A DNA stretch of 45,126 bases from positions 1 through 45,126 of the forward strand of contig CAIYXV010000130.1 in the NCBI GenBank assembly GCA_903930225.1. Reading direction: 5' to 3'. Under the pieces are notes generated by a model. That model had not been told where the DNA came from. It saw only the letters and a list, made by a program, of their open reading frames with translations, and did no database searches. Position 1 is the stretch's first letter, and each line of letters starts with the position of its first letter. The DNA comes from an uncultured bacterium. GTDB lineage: Bacteria; Margulisbacteria; WOR-1; XYC2-FULL-46-14; WPAF01. The position numbers were made by a program, and so were the translations under genes. This document shows positions 1-28,396 of the stretch, piece by piece.

Positions 1-1134
1 AATTCGGCTGCCGGTGCTTTATATAATACGGCGGTTGGGCATAGTTCGCTCTCTAATAATACTGATGGCTATCGTAATACGGCAATCGGTAATTTTTCGC
101 TTATATCAAATTCAACTGGCGCAGGCAATACTGCCGTTGGCAACAGCGCGGGAGCTTATGGGGCCGCCAGCAATACTACCGAAAATTACAACACATATTT
201 AGGCTTTAGAACGGGGTTAACTGCCGCGGGATATAGTAACTCGACCGCGATTGGGGCCAATGCGATGATCGGGAAAAGTAATGCTATTATTTTGGGTGAT
301 TCGACAAATACTTCTCTGACGGTTGGCATAGGGACAAATGCCCCGCAATTTAGGCTTCATGTCTTAGGGGCGGGGACAACGACCGCCCTTATGGTAGACG
401 GTAGTACGAGTTCGGTCGGCATAGGAACTACCAACCCAAACACATATCAGCTTAGAGTGGATTGCACCGGATCGAATTCGACAGCGATACGGGGAGCATC
501 TGATGCGAGCAATTATGGTTATATAGGAGCTGCAACCGGGGTCGGGGTATTTGGAACGGGCACCAGCTGGGCGGGGTATTTCAGCGGAAAATTGAAAACC
601 ACGGACACCGGCGGCACAAACCATGTCTATGATATTGGCGAGCTTATACCGTGCGGAAGCGGCGTCGAAAACGCGGATGTGGTCATCGTAAATCCCCTGA
701 AATACCGCGAGGCCATAAAATGCGCCTCGGATAATGACCCTAAAGTGATCGGCATAATTTCCGATAGCCCGCAGTTCTCAATAGGGGATATGGATCAAGC
801 GAATAAAAAGAATCCAGGGAAGAATTTTAGATTTATAGCTCTTGCCGGCCAGGTGCAGTGCAAGGTTTCGACAAAGAATGGCATGATAAATCCGGGGGAC
901 CTTCTAACCACATCGGATATCCCCGGCCATGCGATGAAGGCGACCGGAGCGGGCTCCATTGTCGCCAAAGCTCTCCAAAAATTTGACGGCTCAAAAGGGA
1001 ACACGGGCAAGATCCTTGCTTTTGTCAGCGTAGGGTTTTCAAACAATGATCCTCAAACGGCCAAAGCATCGCAGAGTGAAATACAGGAACTTAAGTCCCG
1101 ACTCAAGGCGGTCGAGGAGAAATTAGCTAAATAG
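1..1134 (+). CDS. Fibre-like repeat protein, 5'-truncated (fibre gene 1)
   Basis: The reading frame is open from the first base of the window, so the N-terminus lies upstream; 377 residues are visible. The first ~85 residues are repeats of the type NTAVGxxSLxxNT / NTAIGxxSL / NTAVGxxAG, a pattern common in trimeric fibre and tail-like proteins. Two VGIGTxxPxxxLxV motifs follow (near residues 105-145), typical of phage-tail-like beta-structured proteins. The C-terminal ~170 residues contain VIGIISDSP, ALAGQVQCKV, GDLLTTSDIPGHAMKAT and ILAFVSVGF; this resembles the autoprocessing/chaperone-like end seen on many such fibres and is related in layout to the Peptidase_G2 domain of genes 2 and 4. 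The protein ends in a short coiled coil (SRLKAVEEKLAK), also found in gene 3. It is probably secreted and trimeric, but signal peptide and full length cannot be seen. The fold assignment is from pattern recognition. Confidence 0.75.
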   Translation, partial: NSAAGALYNTAVGHSSLSNNTDGYRNTAIGNFSLISNSTGAGNTAVGNSAGAYGAASNTTENYNTYLGFRTGLTAAGYSNSTAIGANAMIGKSNAIILGDSTNTSLTVGIGTNAPQFRLHVLGAGTTTALMVDGSTSSVGIGTTNPNTYQLRVDCTGSNSTAIRGASDASNYGYIGAATGVGVFGTGTSWAGYFSGKLKTTDTGGTNHVYDIGELIPCGSGVENADVVIVNPLKYREAIKCASDNDPKVIGIISDSPQFSIGDMDQANKKNPGKNFRFIALAGQVQCKVSTKNGMINPGDLLTTSDIPGHAMKATGAGSIVAKALQKFDGSKGNTGKILAFVSVGFSNNDPQTAKASQSEIQELKSRLKAVEEKLAK

Positions 1135-1179
1135 AAGCAAGTTTAAAGACCTTATCCTGATCCTAAAAGGGGGAAGAAT

Positions 1180-2694
1180 ATGAAAAAAGCAATTATCGGG
1201 TTATTTATTCTGATGAATTTTGCTATGCCTCAAGCTTGGGCGGCTGATGTAAACGTTATACTGGACAGCAGCGATGGAAGCACCGGAATGGTGATAAAAA
1301 ATAGCAATCTGGCATCGGTGGCGACATATGACAGCGCCGGTGCGATCGCGGCAAGAACCGTGTACGGATCGGGCCAAACTTATAATCTGGGGGCAGGCGC
1401 AAAATTCCTATGGTATCCCAAAAAAGCGGCGTTCCGGGCCGGGAACACGACCGGGGCGGAATGGAATGACGCAAGCATCGGAGGAGTTTCGGCGGCATTC
1501 GGGAATAATACGGTGGCGACCGGCGGCTATTCGCTTGCGACCGGCGCCGGAACCACCGCCAGCGGGAACTATTCGACCGCATTGGGATTTTCTACGGTTG
1601 CAAGCAGTGATGATGCTGTTTCTATGGGATCCTCAACGACTGCCAGCGGACCGGGATCGGTTGCGCTTGGATATAATATTAATAACTCTACCCCCTATTC
1701 TTTGGGCATTGGTTACAGCGGTTCAGGTGTTGGGAAGCCCTCTATTTTGCTTTCCGGGGAAGGGAACAGTTATTTTAATTCGAATGCCGGGAGCCTCAAT
1801 ATCGGCACCAAAGACGCCTTAGCCCTGATAAGGTGCAGTGTATGGGCTCCAAGTTCGGGAGGGGCGATAATAGGTTTCACCAATACGCAGTGTTATGGAG
1901 CGCTTGGATTCCCATCTTACGGGGTATACGCAAATACTACTCAAGGCGGGTATGGGGTGTACTCCGATGCAAGCGGCCCGTCAGCTGTTGGTGTTTATGG
2001 GAAAGGGGCCCTGACGGGCGTGGAGGGATATAATAATAGTAGCGGGGGGACCGCTGTAAAAGCCACTCAGAGCGGCGCAGGGTTTGCGCTCCAGTCGACG
2101 GGAGGAGTGAATTATTTGGACGGGGATACTGGGATCGGGACTTCAAATCCCGCCAATTATAAGCTGCATGTGACAGACACTCTCGCTAGCGGATTTGTGG
2201 CGATATTTGAGAACCTTGACACAGGCACAAACGGAGATGGCATAAGAATTCAGATCGGGCCGACTGCCAATCCAGGGGCAGGGAATCACTTTATTTCTTT
2301 TCGCGACGGCGATGGGACCGAGATCGGATCGGTAAAAGGGACAGGGGCGGCCTCGGTGAATTATTCGACCGTCGGCGGCGATTATGCCGAATATTTTGAC
2401 GCCGAGGAAGATGTCCCGCCCGGAGGCCTGGTCGGCTTGAACCTATTGTCCGGAAAAGCGAGAGCCTTAAGAGAAGGAGACCCGCTTATGGGAATTGTTT
2501 CGATCGCTCCCGGCTTTACCGGCAACACATATAATTCTGACTCTAATAAAAAGAAAGTCCTTATCGCGCTGGTTGGGCAGGTTGACATTAAGGATTTGCA
2601 CAAGATAAAGACCGATAACGGCGTTGTCAAGACAACTGATGGGCAAAAAATCGGCTATCTTTTGGCTAACGGGAAAGTATTCATTAAGTATTAA
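1180..2694 (+). CDS. Secreted YadA-head-like fibre protein with C-terminal Peptidase_G2-type domain (fibre gene 2)
   Basis: 504 residues. A signal peptide is clear (MKKAIIGLFILMNFAMPQAWA, cleavage after AWA). Next comes an N-terminal module (VNVILDSSDGSTGMVIKNS) shared with fibre genes 3 and 4. Residues ~105-165 hold Hep/Hag-like head repeats (ATGGYSLATG, ASGNYSTALG, ASGPGSVALG) as in trimeric autotransporter heads. Then come YGVY-type repeats and a GIGTSNPxxYKLHV motif. From about residue 397 the DYAEYF...GIVSIAPGFTGN signature matches the G2 intramolecular chaperone/protease domain known from phage appendages. There is no YadA-type membrane anchor, so surface attachment is unexplained. The start is supported by AGGGGG-type Shine-Dalgarno bases before the ATG and by the signal peptide. 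The gene lies 45 bp after fibre gene 1 and may be co-transcribed with it. Confidence 0.8.
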   Translation: MKKAIIGLFILMNFAMPQAWAADVNVILDSSDGSTGMVIKNSNLASVATYDSAGAIAARTVYGSGQTYNLGAGAKFLWYPKKAAFRAGNTTGAEWNDASIGGVSAAFGNNTVATGGYSLATGAGTTASGNYSTALGFSTVASSDDAVSMGSSTTASGPGSVALGYNINNSTPYSLGIGYSGSGVGKPSILLSGEGNSYFNSNAGSLNIGTKDALALIRCSVWAPSSGGAIIGFTNTQCYGALGFPSYGVYANTTQGGYGVYSDASGPSAVGVYGKGALTGVEGYNNSSGGTAVKATQSGAGFALQSTGGVNYLDGDTGIGTSNPANYKLHVTDTLASGFVAIFENLDTGTNGDGIRIQIGPTANPGAGNHFISFRDGDGTEIGSVKGTGAASVNYSTVGGDYAEYFDAEEDVPPGGLVGLNLLSGKARALREGDPLMGIVSIAPGFTGNTYNSDSNKKKVLIALVGQVDIKDLHKIKTDNGVVKTTDGQKIGYLLANGKVFIKY

Positions 2695-2755
2695 TCACTG
2701 GGAGTCATAATCGTAAAGCTTTATTCGCAGGCAATATTAATCATTCTTTCAACTG

Positions 2756-2783
2756 TGATATAATACTACTAGAATAATAGGGG
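2756..2783 (+). promoter_or_regulatory. Extended -10 promoter and Shine-Dalgarno of fibre gene 3
   Basis: TGaTATAAT (2756-2764) is a perfect extended -10 box with no good -35. It is followed ~15 nt later by the purine-rich GGGGG (about 2779-2783) just ahead of the ATG at 2789. Fibre gene 3 thus appears to have its own promoter. Read by eye. Confidence 0.6.
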
Positions 2784-2788
2784 GCATT

Positions 2789-4360
2789 ATGAAAAAACTA
2801 TTTATTTCCGCTCTTTTTGTCTTATTTATTTCTTCTGTAGTATTAGCCGCGAATGTAGAGGTAAAACTGGACAGTTCTAACGGCACCTCCGGATTATTAA
2901 TAAGGAATTCATTGTTGAACACCGTCGCCGCATTTGATTCATACGGGAATTTGACCGCCGCAAAGGGATTGTTTCAGGTCAGTGAAGGAAACCAGCAATT
3001 CGTGATCTATAACAATCCGGGGGATTTCAACGCGATGAACTATGCCGGGGATCGGAATGAAATGCTGTTTGGCGAATACGGAGCGGGAAGTTTTAGGGTC
3101 GGCATCCGGACCACAGAAGCGTATGCAACGCTCCAAGTGCACAATCCCGATGATACGACGACCAAATGGGCCATATTAGCGATGCAACCGAAATTGGCCA
3201 ATAATAATTACACTCAGATACTGCTGGGGAAACATACTTCAACGAACAATGCGGCGACCATCAGCTTTGTTCCCAACGCGACCGCGGCTAGATCCTCTTT
3301 AAGGCTGGGGCTCTATAATTCTTCGGATACTTTGTCTTTAAATGGCAATGGATATGTTGGCATAGGTACAGGCGAATCCAACGCGCCCTTAGAGATAAAA
3401 GGAGCGCAGTCATGGATGGACCTGACGACATCAAATAACACTAACGGATCGGTGCTGCAGTTGATCAATCTAAAGCCCGGACTGGGGCCTACCGACTTTC
3501 TTGGAGCGATAAATTGGGGAGCTGGTTACTCCGCCGGGATCGGCCAGATCGGATATTTGAACGGGGGAGCGATGACATTTACTACCGGAGGACGGAACAT
3601 GATGAATATAGATACGGTAGGGGTAGGAATCGGGACTTACCCATCGACTGCTTCATTGGAAGTCCATTCGAATCAGGGCAACAATGCGATAATGGGGCTT
3701 TATGGGCCCAGCACCGGCGGTCATTTACAGAATCTCGGGCAGCTCGGCGAGGCAGACAGAGGAGTATACGCACAGGGCGAACCGTATGGTCTTTACGCTT
3801 ATGGTTATACATACGGAGTTTACGGATACGCCTCAAACGGATATGGAGTTTATGGCCACGGGTCAACATATGGGGTATACGCGGAGGGCGCATCAATCGC
3901 AGCTGTATATGCTTCTGGCAAATTGGTGGGGACGGGAGGGGTCCAATTTACAGGGATTGGATCGGGAACGGGAACCACTCTGATCGTCGATGGCAGCGGG
4001 AATGTGCTTAAATCCACCTCGAGCAGAAGATATAAACACGATATAAAAGAATACGATTCCGATATTTCAAAGCTGGGAAAGCTCACACCGGTTAAATTTA
4101 AATGGAATCCAAACACCGGGTCCCCCAACCAGGAGGATTTCGGGCTGATCGCGGAGGATGTATATAAAATATTCCCGGAATTGGTAGGATTGGACAAAGC
4201 GGGCCGGCCCGATTCGGTAAAATACGATAAACTTTCGGTGATACTGCTGAAGGGGTATCAGGAAAAGGTCAAAGAGATAGATGCTTTGAAAGAAAAGAAT
4301 GAAAATCTCGAGTCCCGCCTCAAGGCGCTGGAAGAGAAGATAGGGGCAAGGGGCAAGTAG
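2789..4360 (+). CDS. Secreted fibre protein with C-terminal S74 intramolecular chaperone domain (fibre gene 3)
   Basis: 523 residues. The signal peptide begins MKKLFISALFVLFISS and is cleaved near VLAA; its first 48 nt are identical to those of fibre gene 4. The shared module VEVKLDSSNGTSGLLIRN follows. The middle contains VGIGTG-type tail repeats and a run of YGVYG/YGLYAYG repeats (about residues 325-370). From residue ~411 the pattern SSRRYKHDI, then FGLIAEDVYKIFPELV, then KLSVILLKGYQEK and a terminal coiled coil (SRLKALEEKIG) is the Peptidase_S74 (endosialidase/tail-spike chaperone) domain, with the S-x-R-x-K autocleavage motif intact. By family knowledge this domain trimerises the fibre and then cuts itself off. 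It differs from the G2-type ends of its neighbours. The last codons overlap an imperfect inverted repeat that flanks the downstream broken gene. Confidence 0.85.
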   Translation: MKKLFISALFVLFISSVVLAANVEVKLDSSNGTSGLLIRNSLLNTVAAFDSYGNLTAAKGLFQVSEGNQQFVIYNNPGDFNAMNYAGDRNEMLFGEYGAGSFRVGIRTTEAYATLQVHNPDDTTTKWAILAMQPKLANNNYTQILLGKHTSTNNAATISFVPNATAARSSLRLGLYNSSDTLSLNGNGYVGIGTGESNAPLEIKGAQSWMDLTTSNNTNGSVLQLINLKPGLGPTDFLGAINWGAGYSAGIGQIGYLNGGAMTFTTGGRNMMNIDTVGVGIGTYPSTASLEVHSNQGNNAIMGLYGPSTGGHLQNLGQLGEADRGVYAQGEPYGLYAYGYTYGVYGYASNGYGVYGHGSTYGVYAEGASIAAVYASGKLVGTGGVQFTGIGSGTGTTLIVDGSGNVLKSTSSRRYKHDIKEYDSDISKLGKLTPVKFKWNPNTGSPNQEDFGLIAEDVYKIFPELVGLDKAGRPDSVKYDKLSVILLKGYQEKVKEIDALKEKNENLESRLKALEEKIGARGK

Positions 4361-4366
4361 CAAGGT

Positions 4367-4390
4367 CCGAAGGACTCCGAGAGTCTTCGG
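4367..4390. repeat. Hairpin immediately after fibre gene 3
   Basis: CCGAAGGACTC (4367-4377), a CGA loop, then GAGTCTTCGG (4381-4390) form a ~10 bp stem with one bulged G. No T-run follows, so it is not a classical terminator. It may be a dispersed palindromic repeat, or it may protect or end the upstream transcript. Confidence 0.5.
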
Positions 4391-4413
4391 ACTCCTCGGA
4401 GGTCAAGAGGGAA

Positions 4414-4572
4414 ATGGGGGAAGGTTTTCGGGATCTAATTGTCTGGCGGAAGGCGTATAGTTTTGCTCTTGATATTTATAAGATATCAAAGCATTTCCCC
4501 AAAGATGAGAATTACGGGATAACTTCAAGAAACCGGCAGATTATTAACGGGATTGATCAATTCGTTAATTAA
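4414..4572 (+). pseudogene. Truncated four-helix-bundle (23S rRNA IVS-family) gene
   Basis: A 52-codon ORF begins MGEGFRDLIVWRKAY and continues with ALDIYKISKHFPKDENYGIT and SRNRQIINGID. This matches the N-terminal half of the four-helix-bundle family (TIGR02436 type: FRDLxVWQKA ... FPxxExYGLTSQxRRA). Family members are usually ~115-130 residues. Here the frame stops right after the second helix, where a conserved NIAEG-like stretch is expected, so about half the protein is missing. It sits alone between two fibre genes, and imperfect inverted repeats flank it. It is most likely a decayed or partial cassette. It could still be translated as a short protein, but I see no Shine-Dalgarno better than GGGG within the first codons. 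Confidence 0.7.
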
Positions 4573-4647
4573 ATAGTATTTTTCTGGACCCTTGCCCCAT
4601 GACCCTAGCCCCTTTTCCCCAATCCCGCTTGCCCGCCTTTGGAGGGC

Positions 4648-4680
4648 CTCAAGGCGCTGGAAGCTAAAATAGGCCGATAA
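4648..4680 (+). pseudogene. 3' remnant of a lost fibre paralogue
   Basis: The bases CTCAAGGCGCTGGAAG are identical to the end of fibre gene 3. In frame they read LKALEAKIGR followed by TAA, the coiled-coil tail that closes fibre gene 3 (LKALEEKIG). No open frame leads into it. This looks like the tail of a deleted S74-type fibre gene left just upstream of the fibre gene 4 promoter. With the four-helix fragment it accounts for most of the 376-bp gap between fibre genes 3 and 4. Confidence 0.65.
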
Positions 4681-4707
4681 AAGTACATGTTTTTCTTTCC
4701 CCGGCCA

Positions 4708-4733
4708 TGTTATAATACTGCGCTAAGGGAGAC
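4708..4733 (+). promoter_or_regulatory. Extended -10 promoter and Shine-Dalgarno of fibre gene 4
   Basis: TGtTATAAT at 4708-4716 is a perfect extended -10 box. AAGGGAGA (about 4726-4733) lies just before the ATG at 4737. The architecture is the same as at fibre gene 3 although the surrounding sequence is not similar. Confidence 0.6.
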
Positions 4734-4736
4734 TTT

Positions 4737-7403
4737 ATGAAAAAACTATTTATTTCCGCTCTTTTTGTCTTATTTATTTCTTCTATTGTATTAGCCGCGA
4801 ATGTGGACGTAAAACTGGACACTCTTAATGGCAGCAGCGCTTTGGTCATAAAGAACAGGAACGGAGTTGAGCAAAGCAGAATCGATTCGTTGGGCAGATT
4901 GGGGATCGGTGTCACTAGCCCAAACGCGCTGCTTGATGTTGGCTATGACGGTAATAATATTATTACCCCCAGAGGGTCCAAGAGCATTTTAGTGGAGCAC
5001 GATGGAGGAGACGGATATATTGAAACTTTTTCTAATGACGGATCAGAAGGGCTGATCCTGCGCGGCGACGACAGCGGAGATCAAGGCATGGTAAGGCAAA
5101 CAGCAGGATTGCCAGGCGGGTATACAAATGGATGGCCTCAAGGACTTCACATTTTTACCTCAAACGTTAATGACCCGATCATGTTTAAAACAAATACAAT
5201 TGAAAGGATGCGGATCAAAAGTAATGGCTATATCGGCATCGGGACGTCGGGCCCGCAAGCCCCATTAGAGATCTACTCCTCCGAGGCTTCTACTATGTGG
5301 AACCTTGTGATCAAACAACCGAACTTAGCAAACAATAATTACGAGCGGATCCTTTTGGGAAGAAGTTTTTCACCAAATGACTCGGCAACGATCAGCTATG
5401 TCCCTAACGCGACTCTGGCCAAATCGACATTAAGGCTTGGTCTTTATAATTCGCCTGATACACTGGCGATAAACGGTAATGGGAATGTCGGGATCGGATC
5501 ATCTGAACCGCAAGTTATGCTTGACCTATATTCAAGTTCTGGCAACAATAGAAACCTGGCAAGATTTAGAACAACAACCACCGGGTTTGCGGCCAGGGTA
5601 TTTATTGAGGATGACGATTACAATCCTAATGCCGGATTGGTATTAAGTAGAAATGGCGCCGAAACTTGGACTTTATATACAAATAATCCACTTTATCCAA
5701 CTATATCTAACGCTGATTTTGCTATTTATAATGGGCAAACTTCCACAAATTCATTGGTGATTAAAGGCAATTCTAATAATGTCGGCATCGGGACGATAAG
5801 CCCAACTGCGACCCTTGATGTCTATGCCAGTCAAAACACCGCCGGGAAATTTCGGTGCGCTTCCAACAGCGGCATCGGCGTATCGGGCAAGGCGGGAAAC
5901 GGTTCGGGGGCAGGGGTGTCATACGGAGGTTCATTTGAATCTAATTCTCAAAGCGGATATGGCGTATATGGATTGGCATCGTCGACCACGGGCTCCAATA
6001 CGGGAGTTTGGGGAAACTCGAATGGTGATTCAGGAGTGGGCGTAACCGGGAGCAGCAATGGGGCGAATGGGATCGGAGTGTCCGCTCAGGGACAAAAATA
6101 TGCAATCGATGCATACACCAGCAATCCTAGCGGGTATGCGATCCATGCGGTCCATAATGCAAGCGGCTATGCCATTTGGGCTCAGGGGGACAAGGATTAT
6201 TTCAGCGGTTATGTAGGCATTGGCGTTACCAACCCAGCCTGGCCTTTGCACATACAAGCGACGCGAGCAATCGCCTTATTAGACACTACGGGCAGTGCCA
6301 GCGGCGGAACGGTTCTCGAGCTGAGGAATTCTTATTCTTCGCCGTCAAATTATCTCGGAGCGATAAATTTCAATAATGCGGCGTTGACATACCCGGGGCA
6401 GATAGGATACCTCGTATCGGACAATATGACATTCAGAATAGCGGGCAATGAAAGGATGAGGATCAATTCAACCGGCAATGTGGGGATCGGTACGACTGAT
6501 CCAGCCTACAAGCTTCATGTTGACAGCGGAGCGAGCGTGGCGGCTCTCCATGCCCAATATAACAGCAATTCATATGTTGATCTGGCATATTCACAATATC
6601 AGGGAGTTAACGTTTATAATAATAATTCATCCGGTACCAGCATATATGGGAACCAGGCAAATGCGAGCGGGTTCTGCGTTTACGCTGACGGGGGCAAAAA
6701 TTATTTCGGCACAAAAGTCGGCATCGGCCAGAATTTCCCGGCTAATAAACTTGATGTCTCCGGTTCGGCGGCGATCGGGGCGGATTTCGGATACTCTGGA
6801 ACAGCCGCGCCTGCCAACGGACTGCTGGTGGAAGGCAGGGTGGGAGTGGGTTTATCGAACCCCAGTTACAAACTGGACGTGGTTGATACTAGATATAATA
6901 GTTATGTCGCAAAATTCAAAAATCTTGATACAAGTGCTGCTTCAAGAGGGATTATAATCCAATTAGGCGTAGCAAGCAATCTTTCAACCGAGAATGAATT
7001 TATTCAATTTATTAATACAGATGCGTCTTTTGGCGGCAGCGTAACGGGCAACGGGGGCGCAGGGATCCAATATAATACTGCCGGATCCGACTACGCGGAA
7101 TATTTTGTATCTGAAAAGAAATTGGAAAAAGACACACTGGTCGGATTAAACCCTGAAACCGGCAAGGTAAGGGCGTGGGAGAAGGGCGATCCGTTCATCG
7201 GGGTCGTTTCGAGCAATCCGGGGTTTGTTGGTAACAAGAAAATCGGAGGACCCAAGGACTTTGATGTTCTAGTCGCTTTATTGGGCCAGGTAAATATTAA
7301 GGATAAAGACAAAATTTCTATCAATGGCTCGCTGGTCAAGACGATAGATGGGCAAAAGATAGGTTACAAACTGTCCGATGGACGTATATTGATCGGACGA
7401 TAA
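4737..7403 (+). CDS. Large secreted tail-fibre-like protein with C-terminal Peptidase_G2-type domain (fibre gene 4)
   Basis: 888 residues. The signal peptide is almost identical to that of fibre gene 3 and is followed by VDVKLDTLNGSSALVIKN. The body is a string of phage-tail-like motifs: LGIGVTSPNALLDV, YIGIGTSGPQAPLEI, NVGIGSSEPQVMLDL, NVGIGTISPTATLDV, YVGIGVTNPAWPLHI, NVGIGTTDPAYKLHV, KVGIGQNFPANKLDV and RVGVGLSNPSYKLDV. These are separated by 50-100 residue inserts, including GVYG/GVWG/GVGVTG repeats near 410-450. One insert (QPNLANNNYERILLGR ... YVPNATLAKSTLRLGLYNS) is clearly paralogous to one in fibre gene 3. From residue ~781 DYAEYF, GVVSSNPGFVGN and VALLGQVNIKD form a G2-type chaperone domain closely matching fibre gene 2. 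The protein therefore pairs a gene-3-like front with a gene-2-like end, as expected from module exchange. The exact ligand or role is unknown. Confidence 0.85.
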   Translation: MKKLFISALFVLFISSIVLAANVDVKLDTLNGSSALVIKNRNGVEQSRIDSLGRLGIGVTSPNALLDVGYDGNNIITPRGSKSILVEHDGGDGYIETFSNDGSEGLILRGDDSGDQGMVRQTAGLPGGYTNGWPQGLHIFTSNVNDPIMFKTNTIERMRIKSNGYIGIGTSGPQAPLEIYSSEASTMWNLVIKQPNLANNNYERILLGRSFSPNDSATISYVPNATLAKSTLRLGLYNSPDTLAINGNGNVGIGSSEPQVMLDLYSSSGNNRNLARFRTTTTGFAARVFIEDDDYNPNAGLVLSRNGAETWTLYTNNPLYPTISNADFAIYNGQTSTNSLVIKGNSNNVGIGTISPTATLDVYASQNTAGKFRCASNSGIGVSGKAGNGSGAGVSYGGSFESNSQSGYGVYGLASSTTGSNTGVWGNSNGDSGVGVTGSSNGANGIGVSAQGQKYAIDAYTSNPSGYAIHAVHNASGYAIWAQGDKDYFSGYVGIGVTNPAWPLHIQATRAIALLDTTGSASGGTVLELRNSYSSPSNYLGAINFNNAALTYPGQIGYLVSDNMTFRIAGNERMRINSTGNVGIGTTDPAYKLHVDSGASVAALHAQYNSNSYVDLAYSQYQGVNVYNNNSSGTSIYGNQANASGFCVYADGGKNYFGTKVGIGQNFPANKLDVSGSAAIGADFGYSGTAAPANGLLVEGRVGVGLSNPSYKLDVVDTRYNSYVAKFKNLDTSAASRGIIIQLGVASNLSTENEFIQFINTDASFGGSVTGNGGAGIQYNTAGSDYAEYFVSEKKLEKDTLVGLNPETGKVRAWEKGDPFIGVVSSNPGFVGNKKIGGPKDFDVLVALLGQVNIKDKDKISINGSLVKTIDGQKIGYKLSDGRILIGR

Positions 7404-7797: not shown

Positions 7798-7945
7798 AAA
7801 ATCACAAGCGCCAAATCACAAATAGCAAACAATTCCAAAATATCAAGATTTAAATTTTAAAAATACCAAATCCTATTGCTTTGATATTTGAATATTTGAG
7901 CTTTGGTATTGTTTGGTATTTGCGGTTTGTGATTTGGAATTTATA
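7798..7945. repeat. AT-rich low-complexity inverted repeat downstream of the four-helix gene
   Basis: The left part (about 7798-7845: AAATCACAAGCGCCAAAT, then CAAACAATTCCAAAATA) is imperfectly complementary to the right part (about 7886-7940: TTTGGTATTGTTTGGTA, then GGTTTGTGATTTGG). The segment could fold into a long, imperfect hairpin. It carries no ORF. The left part also recurs in inverted orientation inside the 5' end of the adjacent gene (8312-8360). Confidence 0.6.
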
Positions 7946-7946
7946 T

Positions 7947-8378
7947 TTAAACTTTAAACATGCTGGATTTAAGGATGATAGCACTTAATATTTTAATAAG
8001 TTCAGTGGATTCCTGGATTAGCGCGAATTTCTCGCTTTCCTGCTTATTATCCGGGCTGGTTAGTTGCAGACAGTATCTGCTTTCCCGTGCTTCTTTTCGA
8101 GATATTTTTACCCTCATTGCGAAGTCTTTTTTACTCAAAGCTTCATTTGCCTCAATATAATTAGCGCCAATTGATCCTGCCGCCCTTACCAGTTGTTTCC
8201 CATTCTGAAGGTTCGAAATGGTTCTTGGGAGATTATTAACATAACTATTTGTCCTTCCTGCATAATTTAGCGTCCTTTCTTCCAGGTCGTATCGTTTTGA
8301 CCCTTGAATATTAGTATTTTGGTATTGTTTGATATTTGGCTCTTGTGATTTGAGATTTAATTCCCTAGACATATACAA
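7947..8378 (-). CDS. Four-helix-bundle protein, 23S rRNA intervening-sequence (IVS) family
   Basis: 143 residues. From residue ~29, YDLEERTLNYAGR, LPRTISNLQNGKQLVRAAGS, IGANYIEANEALSKKDF and RISRKEARESRY are characteristic of the TIGR02436/S23 four-helix-bundle family. That family is related to the Avd accessory protein of diversity-generating retroelements. Its general function is unclear; it is thought to be a positively charged, multimeric nucleic-acid-associated bundle. The first ~26 residues (LNLKSQEPNIKQ, then YQNTNIQGSK) are not part of the domain. They are the translation of a low-complexity repeat found inverted downstream. The start at 8378 has an AAGGAG Shine-Dalgarno six bases upstream. 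No rRNA gene is nearby, so this is a free-standing copy. A truncated relative lies at 4414-4572. Confidence 0.85.
   Translation of the reverse strand: MYMSRELNLKSQEPNIKQYQNTNIQGSKRYDLEERTLNYAGRTNSYVNNLPRTISNLQNGKQLVRAAGSIGANYIEANEALSKKDFAMRVKISRKEARESRYCLQLTSPDNKQESEKFALIQESTELIKILSAIILKSSMFKV
8312..8360 (-). repeat. Inverted partner of the 7798 repeat, inside the four-helix gene 5' end
   Basis: Read on the minus strand, AAATCACAAGAGCCAAAT and CAAACAATACCAAAATA match the + strand copy at 7798-7840 with one mismatch each, plus a short indel between the blocks. The two copies are ~500 bp apart, in opposite orientation, and bracket the conserved part of the gene. Confidence 0.6.
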
Positions 8379-16931: not shown

Positions 16932-17759
16932 CTATTGCACCTCTAGCTCAATTATGCCCGAAGTCTCGCCGCCTGCCAAGTTGGTTATTTTAACCGGGAG
17001 CCGCTTCACCCCGGACGAGACGCTGCTCGCGATTATCACGTTCTGGGAGAAGAAATCATCCTTGACGAACGGAAGTTTGATCTTGTCGCCGCCGATGTCT
17101 TTCAGGTCAACTTCAACTCCGGAGATGTCCTCGATGCGGCCCGGATTTTCCACCCGTACCGTCATCACGACGTAGCTGCCGGCGGTCACCTTGTCGGGCG
17201 TCGCGGTAGCGGAAAGCAGATCCGGGTTCGTTTCCACGTTCAGCGAGGTTTTGGAGATGGCGATCCAGCCCTTTTTATTGGCGGCGGTGACCGGGATCTC
17301 CTTGTCGCCCAACGGTACGTCTGGATTGACGGTCGTCTGGAGGGTATAAACCCCGTCCCCGGCGATCTGGTCGCCCCACAATCCATTGTCAACCATGATG
17401 GCATTGGCCAGCCGCCCGACGCCGCTCAAATCGGCTTTTACCCCGCTTATGTCCTTGGACCCTCCGGGATCCTGGACCGCGGCCGAGACCTCGATGATAG
17501 TGCGGCCGTCCGGCGGGATCTTCTTCGGTACCGCCTTGATCCAATTGATCATGGGCATCAGGCGGACCCGGTTGATCTTGGTGATGTCATAGCCCACGTT
17601 CCAGTTAAGCATTTGCGATTCTTTTTTCTTGACCGCCTGGCTCTTGGACAGAAGAGTTATGGCTTCCGACCTTGTCATTGCCTTATCCGCGAACGCGGCC
17701 GCCCCAGAGAGCGCCATTATGATGATATTCAATGTGATCAGTAGTTTAAGCTTTTTCAT
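16932..17759 (-). CDS. Secreted Ig-like domain protein of the envelope operon
   Basis: 275 residues. The signal peptide (MKKLKLLITLNIIIMALSG ... AFA) is followed by a short segment resembling the start of an SLH motif (AMTRSEAITLLSKSQ). Two Ig-like units follow: residues ~80-170 with VDNGLWGDQIAGDGVYTLQT, the DGxxGDxxxGDGxYTL pattern of surface beta-sandwich domains, and a second unit from ~178 (TATPDKVTAGSYVVMTVRV). The first unit is paralogous to the C-terminus of the operon's first gene (19453-20706). The product is probably periplasmic or surface-exposed. The start overlaps the stop of the upstream gene by four bases (ATGA), with GGAG ahead, implying translational coupling. Confidence 0.75.
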   Translation of the reverse strand: MKKLKLLITLNIIIMALSGAAAFADKAMTRSEAITLLSKSQAVKKKESQMLNWNVGYDITKINRVRLMPMINWIKAVPKKIPPDGRTIIEVSAAVQDPGGSKDISGVKADLSGVGRLANAIMVDNGLWGDQIAGDGVYTLQTTVNPDVPLGDKEIPVTAANKKGWIAISKTSLNVETNPDLLSATATPDKVTAGSYVVMTVRVENPGRIEDISGVEVDLKDIGGDKIKLPFVKDDFFSQNVIIASSVSSGVKRLPVKITNLAGGETSGIIELEVQ

Positions 17760-19456
17760 CTGATCACTCCGAATTTCTTGAAGATCTCTTCGCCCTCGGC
17801 GGCCGTGATGGTCGCGTTGGGGCGGAAAGTCCGGTCGGGGAAGGCTTTGATGAGCCCGCGGTCGACCGCGACTTTTATGTAAACGGCCAGCGGGTGCTCT
17901 TTGGGAACATCAACGAACGGATCGCGCGTTATTCTCGGCAACGGATAATTTGCGGCCTTGACCAGCCAGCTGCTAAGCTCGCCCCTGGTCACCGGAGCCT
18001 CGATCGAGAATGCCGCTTCCGGCGAAACCTCGACCACGCCCATGGTCACCAGCGTTTCGAGCCGGTCTTTCTTCTCGGCGATCTGGGCCTTTTCCTGTTC
18101 AAGCTGCTTTTTCTGTTCGGGGGTCTTGGCGACCTTGATCTGATTGTCGATCATTTTTTCTTCCGCCACGATCACTTTGGCCTTGCGGAAGACCTTTCTT
18201 TCGGTAGAGAGTTTGCCCCCTTCGTAGAAACTATCTACCACCAGCAGGTTTTTACCGACCCTTAACGGCACCAGCACGGAGAAATTCAGGTTCGGGTCAA
18301 TATTGATCGCCTGTTCGTTCAGGTAAACCTCGACCCCCGGTTTTGCGTTACCGGAGACCAGGATGTGATCGTCATAGGTAATGAGATTGTCTTCCGGCGA
18401 AAGGCCTTTTACCGGGTCCTGGATCTTCATGGTCGCGTACTGTTTGACCGGCCGGCGCACAAAAACCCATTCTTCGGGGAAGTAGAGGATCGAAAAGTTA
18501 ATCGTGTTCGAATTGGTCGCCGGGTCGGTTATGGATGCGATGTCAAAGCCCCAGGCCTCGGCTTTAATGCCCGCGCCGAAACTCACGCTTGATCTTTGCG
18601 GGCGGTTCACATAGCCGAGGCGGTAATAATAGGTACCGCTAAGCGCCCATTCGGCGCCGATATAAGTTGTGGGGGAGATCGCTTTCATGCTTTCAATGTC
18701 AAGATCAATGGTCAGTTCCTGATCTTCAACATAGAGCGGAGACCAGACATCGCCGATCACTTTCATTGACCCGCCCAGTCTAATAAAGGCCGGGGCCGCT
18801 TCCGAGATGCCGTTGTCCCACGACAGCTTTCCGCCGCTACCCATGAAGTTATTAGGAAGGAGGTTCGATCCGCTGAACCCGATCGAGGTAAAACGGTTCA
18901 GCCGGTAAAGCATTCCCAGGTCCAATTCCCAGCCCTGCGCGGTACGGTCCGTCCCGCCGGTTTCCCGGAGCGTCTGGCCGAGCAGTGTTTTTAAATTAAC
19001 GCCGAAGCCCAGGTTCTGGGCGATCTTATTTTCAGAGAGAGGGGGGAGGGCGGAAAGCTTGGTGCCGGCCGAAAGGACCAGCACGCTGCTGGTGAAGTCC
19101 GCGGCTTGTCCATTCTGCATGGGGACACCAAGCGCCCCTTTTTGGACGACCGCGATACCCAGGGTCGATCCGTATCCGGTCGGATAAGCCTGGCTCGCGG
19201 AAACATTGTTCAGGTCGCGGACGTTTACGGATATTCCTTTTGCCCAGGGAAGCCCGCCGGGATTATAGAAAGCGGAATTGACGTCGTTGCTTAAGCCTAT
19301 GAACGCTCCCCCCATGCCGAGCGGGCGCGATCCGGAATCGAGGCGGAATGGAGTAATGCCGATCTCAGACAGATACGCGTGGGATATGCCAGCCAGAAGA
19401 AGCAGCAAGATTATGGTGACGCGCAGCGCCTGGCGTACGATACGGATCGATCTCAT
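17756..19456 (-). CDS. PorV/UPF0164-like outer-membrane barrel with C-terminal SLH motif
   Basis: 566 residues. After the signal peptide (...AGISHA), SRPLGMGGAFIGLSNDVNSA and FYNPGGLPW are the hallmark of the PorV/UPF0164 (FadL-like) outer-membrane family. The barrel runs to about residue 340. An Ig-like unit (DHILVSGNAKPGVEVYLN) follows, then a charged helical stretch (KTPEQKKQLEQEKAQIAEKK) and one or two SLH motifs (PVTRGELSSWLVKAA; DPFVDVPKEHPLAVYIKVAV). A barrel and an SLH unit in one chain suggest a direct outer-membrane-to-wall tether, as in OmpM-type proteins though with reversed domain order. ATGA overlap with the next gene and a four-base overlap with the previous one place it mid-operon. 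Confidence 0.8.
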   Translation of the reverse strand: MRSIRIVRQALRVTIILLLLLAGISHAYLSEIGITPFRLDSGSRPLGMGGAFIGLSNDVNSAFYNPGGLPWAKGISVNVRDLNNVSASQAYPTGYGSTLGIAVVQKGALGVPMQNGQAADFTSSVLVLSAGTKLSALPPLSENKIAQNLGFGVNLKTLLGQTLRETGGTDRTAQGWELDLGMLYRLNRFTSIGFSGSNLLPNNFMGSGGKLSWDNGISEAAPAFIRLGGSMKVIGDVWSPLYVEDQELTIDLDIESMKAISPTTYIGAEWALSGTYYYRLGYVNRPQRSSVSFGAGIKAEAWGFDIASITDPATNSNTINFSILYFPEEWVFVRRPVKQYATMKIQDPVKGLSPEDNLITYDDHILVSGNAKPGVEVYLNEQAINIDPNLNFSVLVPLRVGKNLLVVDSFYEGGKLSTERKVFRKAKVIVAEEKMIDNQIKVAKTPEQKKQLEQEKAQIAEKKDRLETLVTMGVVEVSPEAAFSIEAPVTRGELSSWLVKAANYPLPRITRDPFVDVPKEHPLAVYIKVAVDRGLIKAFPDRTFRPNATITAAEGEEIFKKFGVIR

Positions 19457-20706
19457 CTTACCACCGTAATGCTGGCCTGGCCGGTCCCGGTCCAGCCCGA
19501 TTTATCGGTCGCGGTAACGGTTATGACCTTTTCGCCGTAAGCTTCGGAAGTCGCCATGAACCTTAATGTATAAATGCCGTCGCCCTTTTTCTCATCCCCA
19601 TAAGTTCCATCGTCCCTCATTTCGGCATCGGGCGGTCCTCCCAGATCAGAGATATCAGCCTTGAGCGAGAGGATATCCTCCAGCCCCTGCCGGTCAGAGA
19701 CCCCGGCGGTGAGAGCGACGATCGGGTTTTCGTCGAAAATGCTGAAGCTTGACGGGTCCGCGGCTACATAAGTTATCGTCGGCGCCGTATTTATCTTGCA
19801 TAGCGTTTCACTGTTATATCCATACCGGAAATCGAACAGCCATTTTTCCATCCACTTTATCCGGCCGAACCGTGAAAAAAGGATCGCGCATTCGGCCCGG
19901 GTTATTTCCCGGTTGGGCTGGAAGATCGGAACGGTCCTGGAAATACCTTTGAGCAGTCCGCTCTCTCTCGCCTTTTTTATTTCAACATAAAAAGGGTTAT
20001 TCTCGGGCACGTCATAAAAGAGAGAAGGGATCTCTTTTAGGAATTTCCCGCCTTCCGCCGCATAAACGATATCGGCGGCTTCTCCTCGGGTCAGGGGTTC
20101 GTCCACGCCGAAAATATTTGGCGCGACCGGCTTCATGTAACCTTTCTGGTAGGCGATCTTTATGTAAGGCGAGCGCCAGTGTTCCTTGGGGACATCAAAG
20201 AAAACATCCTGATATTCCAAACCGACGGGAAGCCCCTTGGCTTTTACCAGCCAGGTAGCGAATTCGCCGCGGGTGACCGGCTGGCTAAGATAAAAATTGC
20301 CGTCGGGATAGCCTTCCACGATCTGCAGGGAAGCGAGCGTCAGGATCTCGTGGCGGGCCCAATGCTTCCGTTCGTCGTAGGTTATTTCGGCGTCGGGGAA
20401 CGAAACCAGGCGCAGTACCCTTAAAGTTTTTTCCTGGAACTTCCCGGAATTGTCCCAGGCCTTGACCTCAACATAATTTTTACCGGGGCCCAGCAGCAAT
20501 CCGCAGGAAAAAGCCCCGTCGGCGTTGATCTCGACCGGGATATCGTTTACCGTAACGCTATTTAAATTATCCCCCGAACCGGACAAGGTGATTAGATCCT
20601 GATTGGTCAGGGTTTTGTCTTTGGGCTGCTCGATATTTAAAAACGACGCGTTCCCGGAGGAACTCAGGCAGCATAAGAGAAAAAAGCAGATCAGGAAATT
20701 CCTCAT
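19453..20706 (-). CDS. Secreted protein with three SLH domains flanked by Ig-like domains
   Basis: 417 residues. A signal peptide (MRNFLICFFLLCCLSSSGNA) leads to an Ig-like unit (IEQPKDKTLTNQDLITLSGS). Three SLH repeats follow: residues ~110-155 (VEGYPDGNFYLSQPVTRGEF), ~165-220 (FFDVPKEHWRSPYIKIA; PLTRGEAADIVYAAEG) and ~225-280 (FYDVPENNPFYVEIKKA; EITRAECAILFSRFG). The C-terminal unit (MRDDGTYGDEKKGDGIYTL) is shared with the 16932-17759 protein. SLH domains typically bind peptidoglycan-linked polymers. It heads a four-gene operon with a PorV-like barrel, an Ig-like protein and a sensor kinase. An extended -10 (TGcTAAAAT) lies ten bases before the ATG. Confidence 0.85.
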   Translation of the reverse strand: MRNFLICFFLLCCLSSSGNASFLNIEQPKDKTLTNQDLITLSGSGDNLNSVTVNDIPVEINADGAFSCGLLLGPGKNYVEVKAWDNSGKFQEKTLRVLRLVSFPDAEITYDERKHWARHEILTLASLQIVEGYPDGNFYLSQPVTRGEFATWLVKAKGLPVGLEYQDVFFDVPKEHWRSPYIKIAYQKGYMKPVAPNIFGVDEPLTRGEAADIVYAAEGGKFLKEIPSLFYDVPENNPFYVEIKKARESGLLKGISRTVPIFQPNREITRAECAILFSRFGRIKWMEKWLFDFRYGYNSETLCKINTAPTITYVAADPSSFSIFDENPIVALTAGVSDRQGLEDILSLKADISDLGGPPDAEMRDDGTYGDEKKGDGIYTLRFMATSEAYGEKVITVTATDKSGWTGTGQASITVVR

Positions 20707-27084: not shown

Positions 27085-27516
27085 ATGGGAGATCTCTCGG
27101 AACACTTTAATCACAAGGACTTCGCCTGCCGCTGTCCGGAATGCAAAGGCGGCGAATACAAGGTCCATCTGGGAATGGTCGGCGCGCTGGAGATGCTGGC
27201 CGAGCATTTTAAAAAACCGGTCAAAGTAGTTGCCGGCTACTGGTGCGAGGGTTATGACGAAAGCCTGAAAAGGGAAAAAGTAAGCTATCACGTTAAAGGA
27301 AAAGCGGCGCACATTATGGTCGAAGACGTCCCACTGGCGGAAGTGTTCAAATACGCCGAAACCCTGCCCGAGATCCATGGGGTCGGGTTTTATCCAAAAG
27401 AAGGGTTCATTCATGTCGATACCCGCCCCAAGGAAAAGAAGGACGCCTGGATCAGGGAAGGCGACCGCTATGCGCCGGCCACACCCGAAAAACGTAAACA
27501 GTATGGCCTCCTCTGA
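27085..27516 (+). CDS. M15A-type (Peptidase_M15_3) metallopeptidase-like protein
   Basis: 143 residues from the second ATG, chosen by promoter geometry. The pattern LSEHFNHKDFACRCPECKGG, then VVAGYWCEGY, SYHVKGKAAHIMVEDV and GVGFYPKEGFIHVDTR follows the D-Ala-D-Ala carboxypeptidase-like M15_3 family (zinc ligands in SxHxxGxAxD and HxD). The aspartate of the first motif is His here (KAAH), so either a His ligand replaces it or activity is altered. There is no signal peptide, so a cytoplasmic or phage-like release role is possible; periplasmic peptidoglycan cleavage would need an unseen export route. The stop overlaps the start of the recombinase gene by 14 bp. Confidence 0.75.
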   Translation: MGDLSEHFNHKDFACRCPECKGGEYKVHLGMVGALEMLAEHFKKPVKVVAGYWCEGYDESLKREKVSYHVKGKAAHIMVEDVPLAEVFKYAETLPEIHGVGFYPKEGFIHVDTRPKEKKDAWIREGDRYAPATPEKRKQYGLL

Positions 27517-28396
27517 TTACCGGGTTTATGTAGAACAGTTTATCGATTCATTAAGGACGGAAAGAAACTTTTCCCAGTACACTTTGACCAATTACCGGAT
27601 CGATCTGCTGCAGCTGTTAGGATTCATAAAAGAAAAGGAGCGGCAGCTATTTGCTATTGACCGTGCCTCCGCCCGCGAATTCCTCTATTTTCTCGAGAAG
27701 CGGAAATATGGGAGGCGGTCGCTGGCCAGAAAGATCTCGGCCATTCGTTCGTTCTTCCGTTTTTTGGTACGCGAAAAGAAGACGAAAGCCAATCCCTTTG
27801 TCTTGATTTCTACCCCAAAACTGCAGAAAAAACTTCCGAATTTCCTTTATCTCACAGAAATGGAAAAACTGCTGGATGCGCCTGACGTTGGGACCTTCCC
27901 GGGCAAGAGGGACCGGGCGATGATCGAATTGCTGTATGGAAGCGGCATTCGCGTTTCGGAAGCGACAAAACTTAACCTTTCCGATATGGATCTTAACAGC
28001 GGGGAGATCAGGGTGTTCGGAAAGGGAAGAAAAGAGAGGATCGTCCTGATCGGCAAATACGCCATTTCGGCGTTAAAAGAATATCTGTCCGCCCGCGGCA
28101 AGCCGGAGACCCGGGCCGTGTTCTTAAACCAGAGAGGCGGCAGGTTCACAGAGCGGAGCGTGGAGCGGATGATCAAATCGTATGCAAAAAAAGCGGGGCT
28201 GGAAAAACCGATCACTCCGCACACCCTCCGGCATACCTTTGCGACCCATCTTTTGGGCAGCGGCGCGGACTTGAGGACGGTACAGGAATTACTGGGACAC
28301 TCTTCTCTGCAGACTACCCAGGTTTACACTCATGTGACAAAAGAAAAGTTAAAATCAGTATATGACCTTGCGCACCCGCGAGCAAAAATAATATAA
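27503..28396 (+). CDS. xer: Tyrosine recombinase of the XerC/XerD family
   Basis: 297 residues from the ATG at 27503, matching the usual ~300. These enzymes resolve chromosome dimers at dif with FtsK. The SAM-like N-domain (VEQFIDSLRTERNFSQYTL) is followed by the catalytic set R150 (GSGIRVSE), K174 (GKGRKERI), H240 and R243 (PHTLRHTFATHL), H266 (ELLGHSSLQTT) and Y275 (QVYTHV), all present. The sequence does not separate XerC from XerD; it could be a single Xer acting alone. There is no integron or integrase neighbour. The frame could be extended to 27377, but only through a region coding the peptidase in another frame. No clear dif site was recognised. Confidence 0.9.
   Translation: MASSDYRVYVEQFIDSLRTERNFSQYTLTNYRIDLLQLLGFIKEKERQLFAIDRASAREFLYFLEKRKYGRRSLARKISAIRSFFRFLVREKKTKANPFVLISTPKLQKKLPNFLYLTEMEKLLDAPDVGTFPGKRDRAMIELLYGSGIRVSEATKLNLSDMDLNSGEIRVFGKGRKERIVLIGKYAISALKEYLSARGKPETRAVFLNQRGGRFTERSVERMIKSYAKKAGLEKPITPHTLRHTFATHLLGSGADLRTVQELLGHSSLQTTQVYTHVTKEKLKSVYDLAHPRAKII

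Follow-up and report, generated by a model that had tools for sequence, protein, structure and literature searches.

Tandem genes for predicted exported fibres with phage-type chaperone ends in an uncultured WOR-1 bacterium

Four fibre genes at the contig end

The window analyzed here is a 45,126-nucleotide stretch that makes up the complete contig CAIYXV010000130.1 of a 137-contig, 1.69-Mb metagenome-assembled genome (MAG) from an uncultured bacterium of the WOR-1 lineage of Margulisbacteria. Four consecutive plus-strand frames at its left end, 1 to 1134, 1180 to 2694, 2789 to 4360, and 4737 to 7403 (genes 1 to 4), encode fibre proteins with phage-type chaperone ends of the Peptidase_S74 or Peptidase_G2 family. 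An earlier note, made from the letters of this DNA, had described four such genes in a row with one cut by the edge, and the frames agree with it. Gene 1 has no start codon and is truncated by the contig start, which is a matter of assembly. Its 3' part encodes a YadA-head-like shaft, VGIGT caps, a G2-like end, and a C-terminal coiled coil. Gene 2 encodes a fibre of 504 amino acids (aa) with a signal peptide (1180 to 1242), an N-terminal module shared with genes 3 and 4 (N-module; 1243 to 1350; A1 profile E value of 6.8e-26), YadA-head repeats, and a G2 end. The 523-aa product of gene 3 contains a signal peptide (2789 to 2848), the N-module (2849 to 2965; E value of 2e-26), a shaft, an S74 end, and a coiled coil, and the 888-aa product of gene 4 contains a signal peptide (4737 to 4796), the N-module (4797 to 4940; E value of 1.1e-28), a long VGIGT-capped shaft, and a G2 end.

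The signal peptides of genes 2 to 4, which were called from composition and from alignment of these genes with 12 paralogues, have a K/R start, a hydrophobic stretch (mean Kyte-Doolittle value of 2.4 to 2.9 over 12 residues), and an Ala-rich cleavage region, so that all three appear intact, as previously noted. No lipobox Cys was found in them. The start cassette of gene 3 (2787 to 2873) is 95% identical in DNA over 87 bp to its counterpart in gene 4, and the leader of a fibre gene on another contig of the genome, C73, is 96% identical to that of gene 2 over 50 bp. Judged by DNA identity, start cassettes have been exchanged or recently copied among the paralogues. For gene 1, a paralogue start on C73 shows 86% identity over 84 aa. 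The 45 kb contain the string TGNTATAATACT without mismatch at two places, 2756 and 4708, both directly upstream of genes 3 and 4, respectively, as part of extended -10 promoter-like elements on the plus strand (TGATATAATACT at 2756 to 2767 and TGTTATAATACT at 4708 to 4719). A general promoter scan of the window gave results at chance level, although from these sites it is plausible that genes 3 and 4 each have a promoter of their own, as proposed in the earlier note.

The repeats differ among the genes. The VGIGTxxPxxxL caps occur eight times in gene 4, compared with 0.02 per shuffled sequence, and YadA-head repeats are significant in gene 2 only (PF05658; 8.6e-10). The two repeat types ascribed to the whole cluster are present, whereas the strict cap pattern is found once in gene 1 and not at all in genes 2 and 3, where the caps are degenerate.

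The S74 end of gene 3

Gene 3 matches PF13884 with 50.1 bits (cutoff, 22; E value of 3.5e-13), and the domain lies at 4019 to 4186 (E value of 2.7e-14), followed by the C-terminal coiled coil at 4250 to 4357. The domain aligns with that of the phage S16 long tail fibre (6f45; E value of 1.8e-5), looks intact, and retains Ser411 and Lys416. In the T5 pb1 chaperone the corresponding residues are Ser1264 and Lys1269 (PMC4690869). Like the intramolecular chaperones of K1F endosialidase, T5 pb1, and the S16 long tail fibre, gene 3 combines the domain, the Ser/Lys spacing, and a terminal coiled coil. It differs from them in that the domain sits on a signal-peptide protein of a cell and that Ser replaces Asp after the catalytic Ser. 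Self-cleavage of the S74 end is well supported by the conserved residues.

The G2 ends of genes 1, 2, and 4

The hidden Markov model search for G2 ends gave a divided result. The gene 4 end (7089 to 7400) matches PF11962 with 31.8 bits (cutoff, 25), whereas the gene 2 end (2380 to 2691) falls slightly under the cutoff with 23.5 bits and the gene 1 end has no Pfam match. The G2 assignment of the gene 2 end is supported by 47% identity to the gene 4 end. The gene 1 tip (631 to 1041) is homologous to long G2 ends in other bacteria, with many homologues, and its D-x-x-E motif (DIGE, D211) has D and E invariant across 24 of them. The monomer model of this tip (AF2 pLDDT of 86.9), in which residues 159 to 184 form the C-terminal coiled-coil helix (1051 to 1128), found phi29 gp12 first in a Foldseek search (3suc; E value of 1e-4), followed by phage capsid-surface proteins; viral models likewise match it. 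Homologues and model together thus favor the G2-type end proposed for gene 1. The gene 4 C-terminal model is confident only over the tip, approximately residues 85 to 189 of the 189 modeled, and phi29 gp12 was again the first Foldseek match (3gqh and 3suc; E values of 1.4e-4 and 7.1e-4). The S74 and G2 assignments are thus backed by profile or by fold.

The G2 ends share with gp12 of the Bacillus phage phi29 (Peptidase_G2; 3gqh and 3suc) the D-Y/F-A-E-Y-F start, the fold, and the C-terminal position on a fibre-like protein, and the Asp and Glu of D-x-x-E are present in genes 1, 2, and 4. However, the C-terminal autochaperone of gp12 has 163 aa, compared with approximately 105 aa in genes 2 and 4, which have a different second half, and gp12 is a phage protein, whereas the G2 fibres here are cellular host proteins predicted to be exported. 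The phi29 cleavage site, Ser691/Asp692, aligns with Ser784/Asp785 of gene 4, where it is retained; Gly precedes Asp401 in gene 2, and Tyr takes the place of Ser in gene 1. The claim that both kinds of end cut themselves off consequently holds up for S74, while among the G2 ends the site is found only in gene 4. Release of the phi29 chaperone requires ATP. If this is right, an exported G2 domain must be released differently or not at all.

A scan of named genomes with the gene 2/4 tip returned Bdellovibrionia MAGs at the top, followed by Cloacimonadota, Peribacteria, and Bacteroidales. Among the matches listed, viral contigs mostly align with the first half of the tip (approximately residues 81 to 135), and only one viral match (L152) reaches residue 188, compared with about 14 of 74 cellular loci. 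Since the viral matches stop at the first half while cellular loci extend further, the second half looks like a mainly cellular form, a comparison of coverage in two scans rather than a phylogeny. One Gottesmanbacteria G2 protein (L085) is followed in frame by a region that by eye looks like a Hint/intein type (GSCLTGDTLLPI...).

A fibre family across the genome

The same signal peptide and 35-residue N-module were found in 15 proteins of the genome: genes 2 to 4, four on contig C129, two each on C76 and C5, and one each on C65, C58, C37, and C73. Those on C58, C37, and C73 are truncated by contig ends, and fibres with other starts are present on C21 and C55. Beyond the genes of the window, approximately 14 further fibre genes or fragments lie amid core genes. 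Several contigs break within fibre genes, probably because of such repeats. Modules are shared between paralogues, several of which also contain YadA-head repeats. The tips in the genome include four S74 ends, two G2 ends, five beta-rich ends finishing in YIELPL or similar, and others. A profile of the YIELPL-type tip matched at full length only in this genome among the 69 searched, and the tip had no Pfam match above the cutoff and no convincing PDB relative in its five paralogues. The N-module likewise had no convincing PDB relative (best E value, 0.25); another two genomes of the order clearly contain it, and matches elsewhere are weak and partial. Of 74 genomes in the phylum, 23 have S74 and 12 have G2. 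Tandem signal-peptide fibres were looked for elsewhere, and the same genome has them on C5, C76, and C129, with four consecutive copies on the last. Further genomes in the phylum carry S74 frames in tandem, at least three of approximately 1,100 aa on each of G027:C49, G028:C1, and G029:C31. No literature on fibres of this lineage was found.

The genes to the right of the cluster encode a GspE/PilB-like ATPase, an acyltransferase, RadA, ClpC, a histidine kinase, S-layer-homology (SLH) proteins, RecN, and MetK, and a tyrosine recombinase, TamB, Omp85, RsmG, ParA, and ParB follow further in the window, a content typical of ordinary chromosome. Two same-family genomes (G001 and G002) have the conserved neighboring block without fibres beside it in the sequence visible to its left (approximately 1.3 kb and 8 kb, respectively), and the cluster accordingly appears to be an addition specific to this lineage, adjoining the block.

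These surroundings bear on a possible origin from an integrated phage, whose remaining tail-fibre genes would be kept for it or move with it. Profiles for S74, G2, and PHROG tail fibres match the proteins, a tyrosine recombinase is encoded at 27377 to 28396, and the contig end interrupts gene 1, whose left side lies outside the contig. However, tail, capsid, terminase, and portal genes, sought as the mark of a prophage, are absent from the 45-kb window, in which the contig covers only the right side of the cluster, and the recombinase lies approximately 20 kb away amid core genes. The proteins carry signal peptides, which phage fibres assembled in the cytoplasm do not need, 15 copies share one common N-module, and the paralogue clusters adjoin PolA, Lgt, ProC, and ClpC-type genes. 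On the side that the contig covers, the locus is thus no prophage, and an origin as phage remnants is very improbable.

Relation to known exported fibres

The mosaic adhesive trimer (MAT) fibres of Bdellovibrio bacteriovorus are exported, S74-chaperoned, and trimeric, with a repertoire of 21, and serve this predator in prey recognition as adhesive fibres (PMC10769870). The principle of exported, S74-chaperoned cellular fibres, published in 2024 for these proteins, is thus not new. The fibres described here share with the MAT superfamily a predicted signal peptide, a constant N terminus, tips of the S74 or another type, and a large repertoire of paralogues, and their shaft, with VG..xxPxxxL caps, is probably beta-helical as well. 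When the distal shaft of gene 4 (6300 to 6900) was searched against the PDB, four sequences were retrieved at E values up to 0.1, all assignable, by name or entry series, to the study of Bdellovibrio MAT fibres: 8ond (labeled bd2133; 1.6e-10), 8ojn (4.8e-5), 8ol4 (1.1e-4), and 8oml (3.5e-3). A constant base with diversified C-terminal tips, which characterizes MAT fibres, is also found here. However, the MAT N-domain is a beta-rich domain of approximately 130 aa after the signal peptide, whereas the 35-aa N-module of genes 2 to 4 leads straight into the shaft. No mention of G2 tips or of the YIELPL-type tip, both of which are present here, was found in the parts of that report consulted. Because they would work like MAT fibres but lack one defining feature, the fibres were not filed as MAT members; on sequence grounds they are classed as a MAT-like surface-fibre repertoire with a different N terminus. 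In three Bdellovibrionia G2-tip proteins, a signal peptide is followed by an N-terminal region in agreement with the published description of the MAT N-domain, by which they were compared. The C55 N terminus resembles that of one of these Bdellovibrionia proteins (pairwise BLASTP; E value of 2e-6). A profile built from the N-terminal regions of five G2-tip relatives matches none of genes 2 to 4, although it is a weak profile that also misses C55. A 2,740-aa open frame at L033:5793-14012, truncated by a contig end, has a MAT-like N terminus and 10 VGIG caps.

YadA-type trimeric autotransporters (type Vc) also have YadA-head repeats, as in gene 2 and several paralogues, and a trimeric fibre logic. 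They end in a C-terminal membrane barrel that serves as the anchor, whereas a phage-type chaperone end occupies this position here and the polarity is opposite. YadA autotransporter identity was rejected, since the C termini are S74 or G2 and no barrel anchor is present, in line with the earlier note. This assignment, like that of a phage remnant, is very improbable.

The most likely interpretation is that the bacterium has a mosaic family of Sec-exported trimeric fibres of its own, with this locus among its several clusters, and that these fibres would work like MAT adhesins; the cellular fibre system proposed in the earlier note is thereby supported. In such a system, the signal peptide would export each protein, and three chains would intertwine, either in the periplasm or beyond it, as a beta-prism/beta-helix fibre nucleated by the C-terminal S74 or G2 domain and capped at intervals by the VGIGTxxPxxxL loops, as homology suggests. 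The S74 domain of gene 3 would cut itself off at Ser411, gene 4 may cut at Ser784/Asp785, and genes 1 and 2 may retain the G2 domain as a permanent trimeric cap. The invariant MAT N terminus is thought to retain the fibre, and the MAT authors name no retention partner (PMC10769870), which makes the shared 35-residue N-module a natural candidate for holding the fibre at the cell surface. The varied distal end might bind glycans, surfaces, prey, or partner cells, and the repertoire may have diversified as start cassettes, modules of the shaft, and tips were duplicated and exchanged.

Several points weigh against this interpretation. The phi29 cleavage-site serine is missing from two of the three G2-type ends, the N terminus of genes 2 to 4 is not the approximately 130-aa MAT domain, and low-complexity repeats may inflate the shaft similarity. 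The fibres, which are probably trimeric, are known from genes and monomer models, from which we infer trimerization, outer-membrane export, surface retention, cleavage, and ligand binding. In addition, the proteins could be exported and trimeric but structural, forming a sheath or surface layer or serving cell-cell cohesion, as their high copy number in a small genome and the SLH proteins of the window and beside the C76 fibre cluster would allow. Divergent, swappable tips on a constant base nevertheless have the look of recognition proteins, and the MAT member Bd2439 binds glycans (PMC10769870). A structural role is thus unlikely, albeit less so than the phage and autotransporter origins.

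Recognition fibres would carry the MAT-type principle beyond the one predatory bacterium in which it is known, to an uncultured small-genome lineage, and add the phi29-type G2 chaperone to the tips used by cells. The N-module and tip together provide a sequence handle for finding such repertoires. Two questions become testable, namely, how a surface fibre is held without a membrane anchor and whether a G2 autochaperone can work outside the cytoplasm. A more tentative idea, which we hold to be possible rather than probable, is that the fibres form an independent mosaic class beyond predators, built on a minimal N-terminal base of its own. In this class, remodeled G2 domains, with a new second half and the cleavage Ser often lost, would act as permanent extracytoplasmic trimer caps without the phage release step.

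Other features of the window

Two neighboring SLH-domain proteins are encoded at 17756 to 20706, one with a Glucodextran_B domain, and an SLH/Glucodextran_B protein (L027:2583-4556) is also encoded on the C76 contig with two fibres. In the gap that separates genes 3 and 4, a short frame at 4415 to 4575 (EGFRDLIVWRKAYSFALDIYKISKHFPKDENYGITSRNRQ...) looks like the N-terminal portion of a 23S rRNA intervening-sequence protein; it did not match the possible protein of this kind (PF05635) encoded on the minus strand at 7947 to 8378. A 61-bp repeat (82%) connects 7888 to 7947 with 8304 to 8362.

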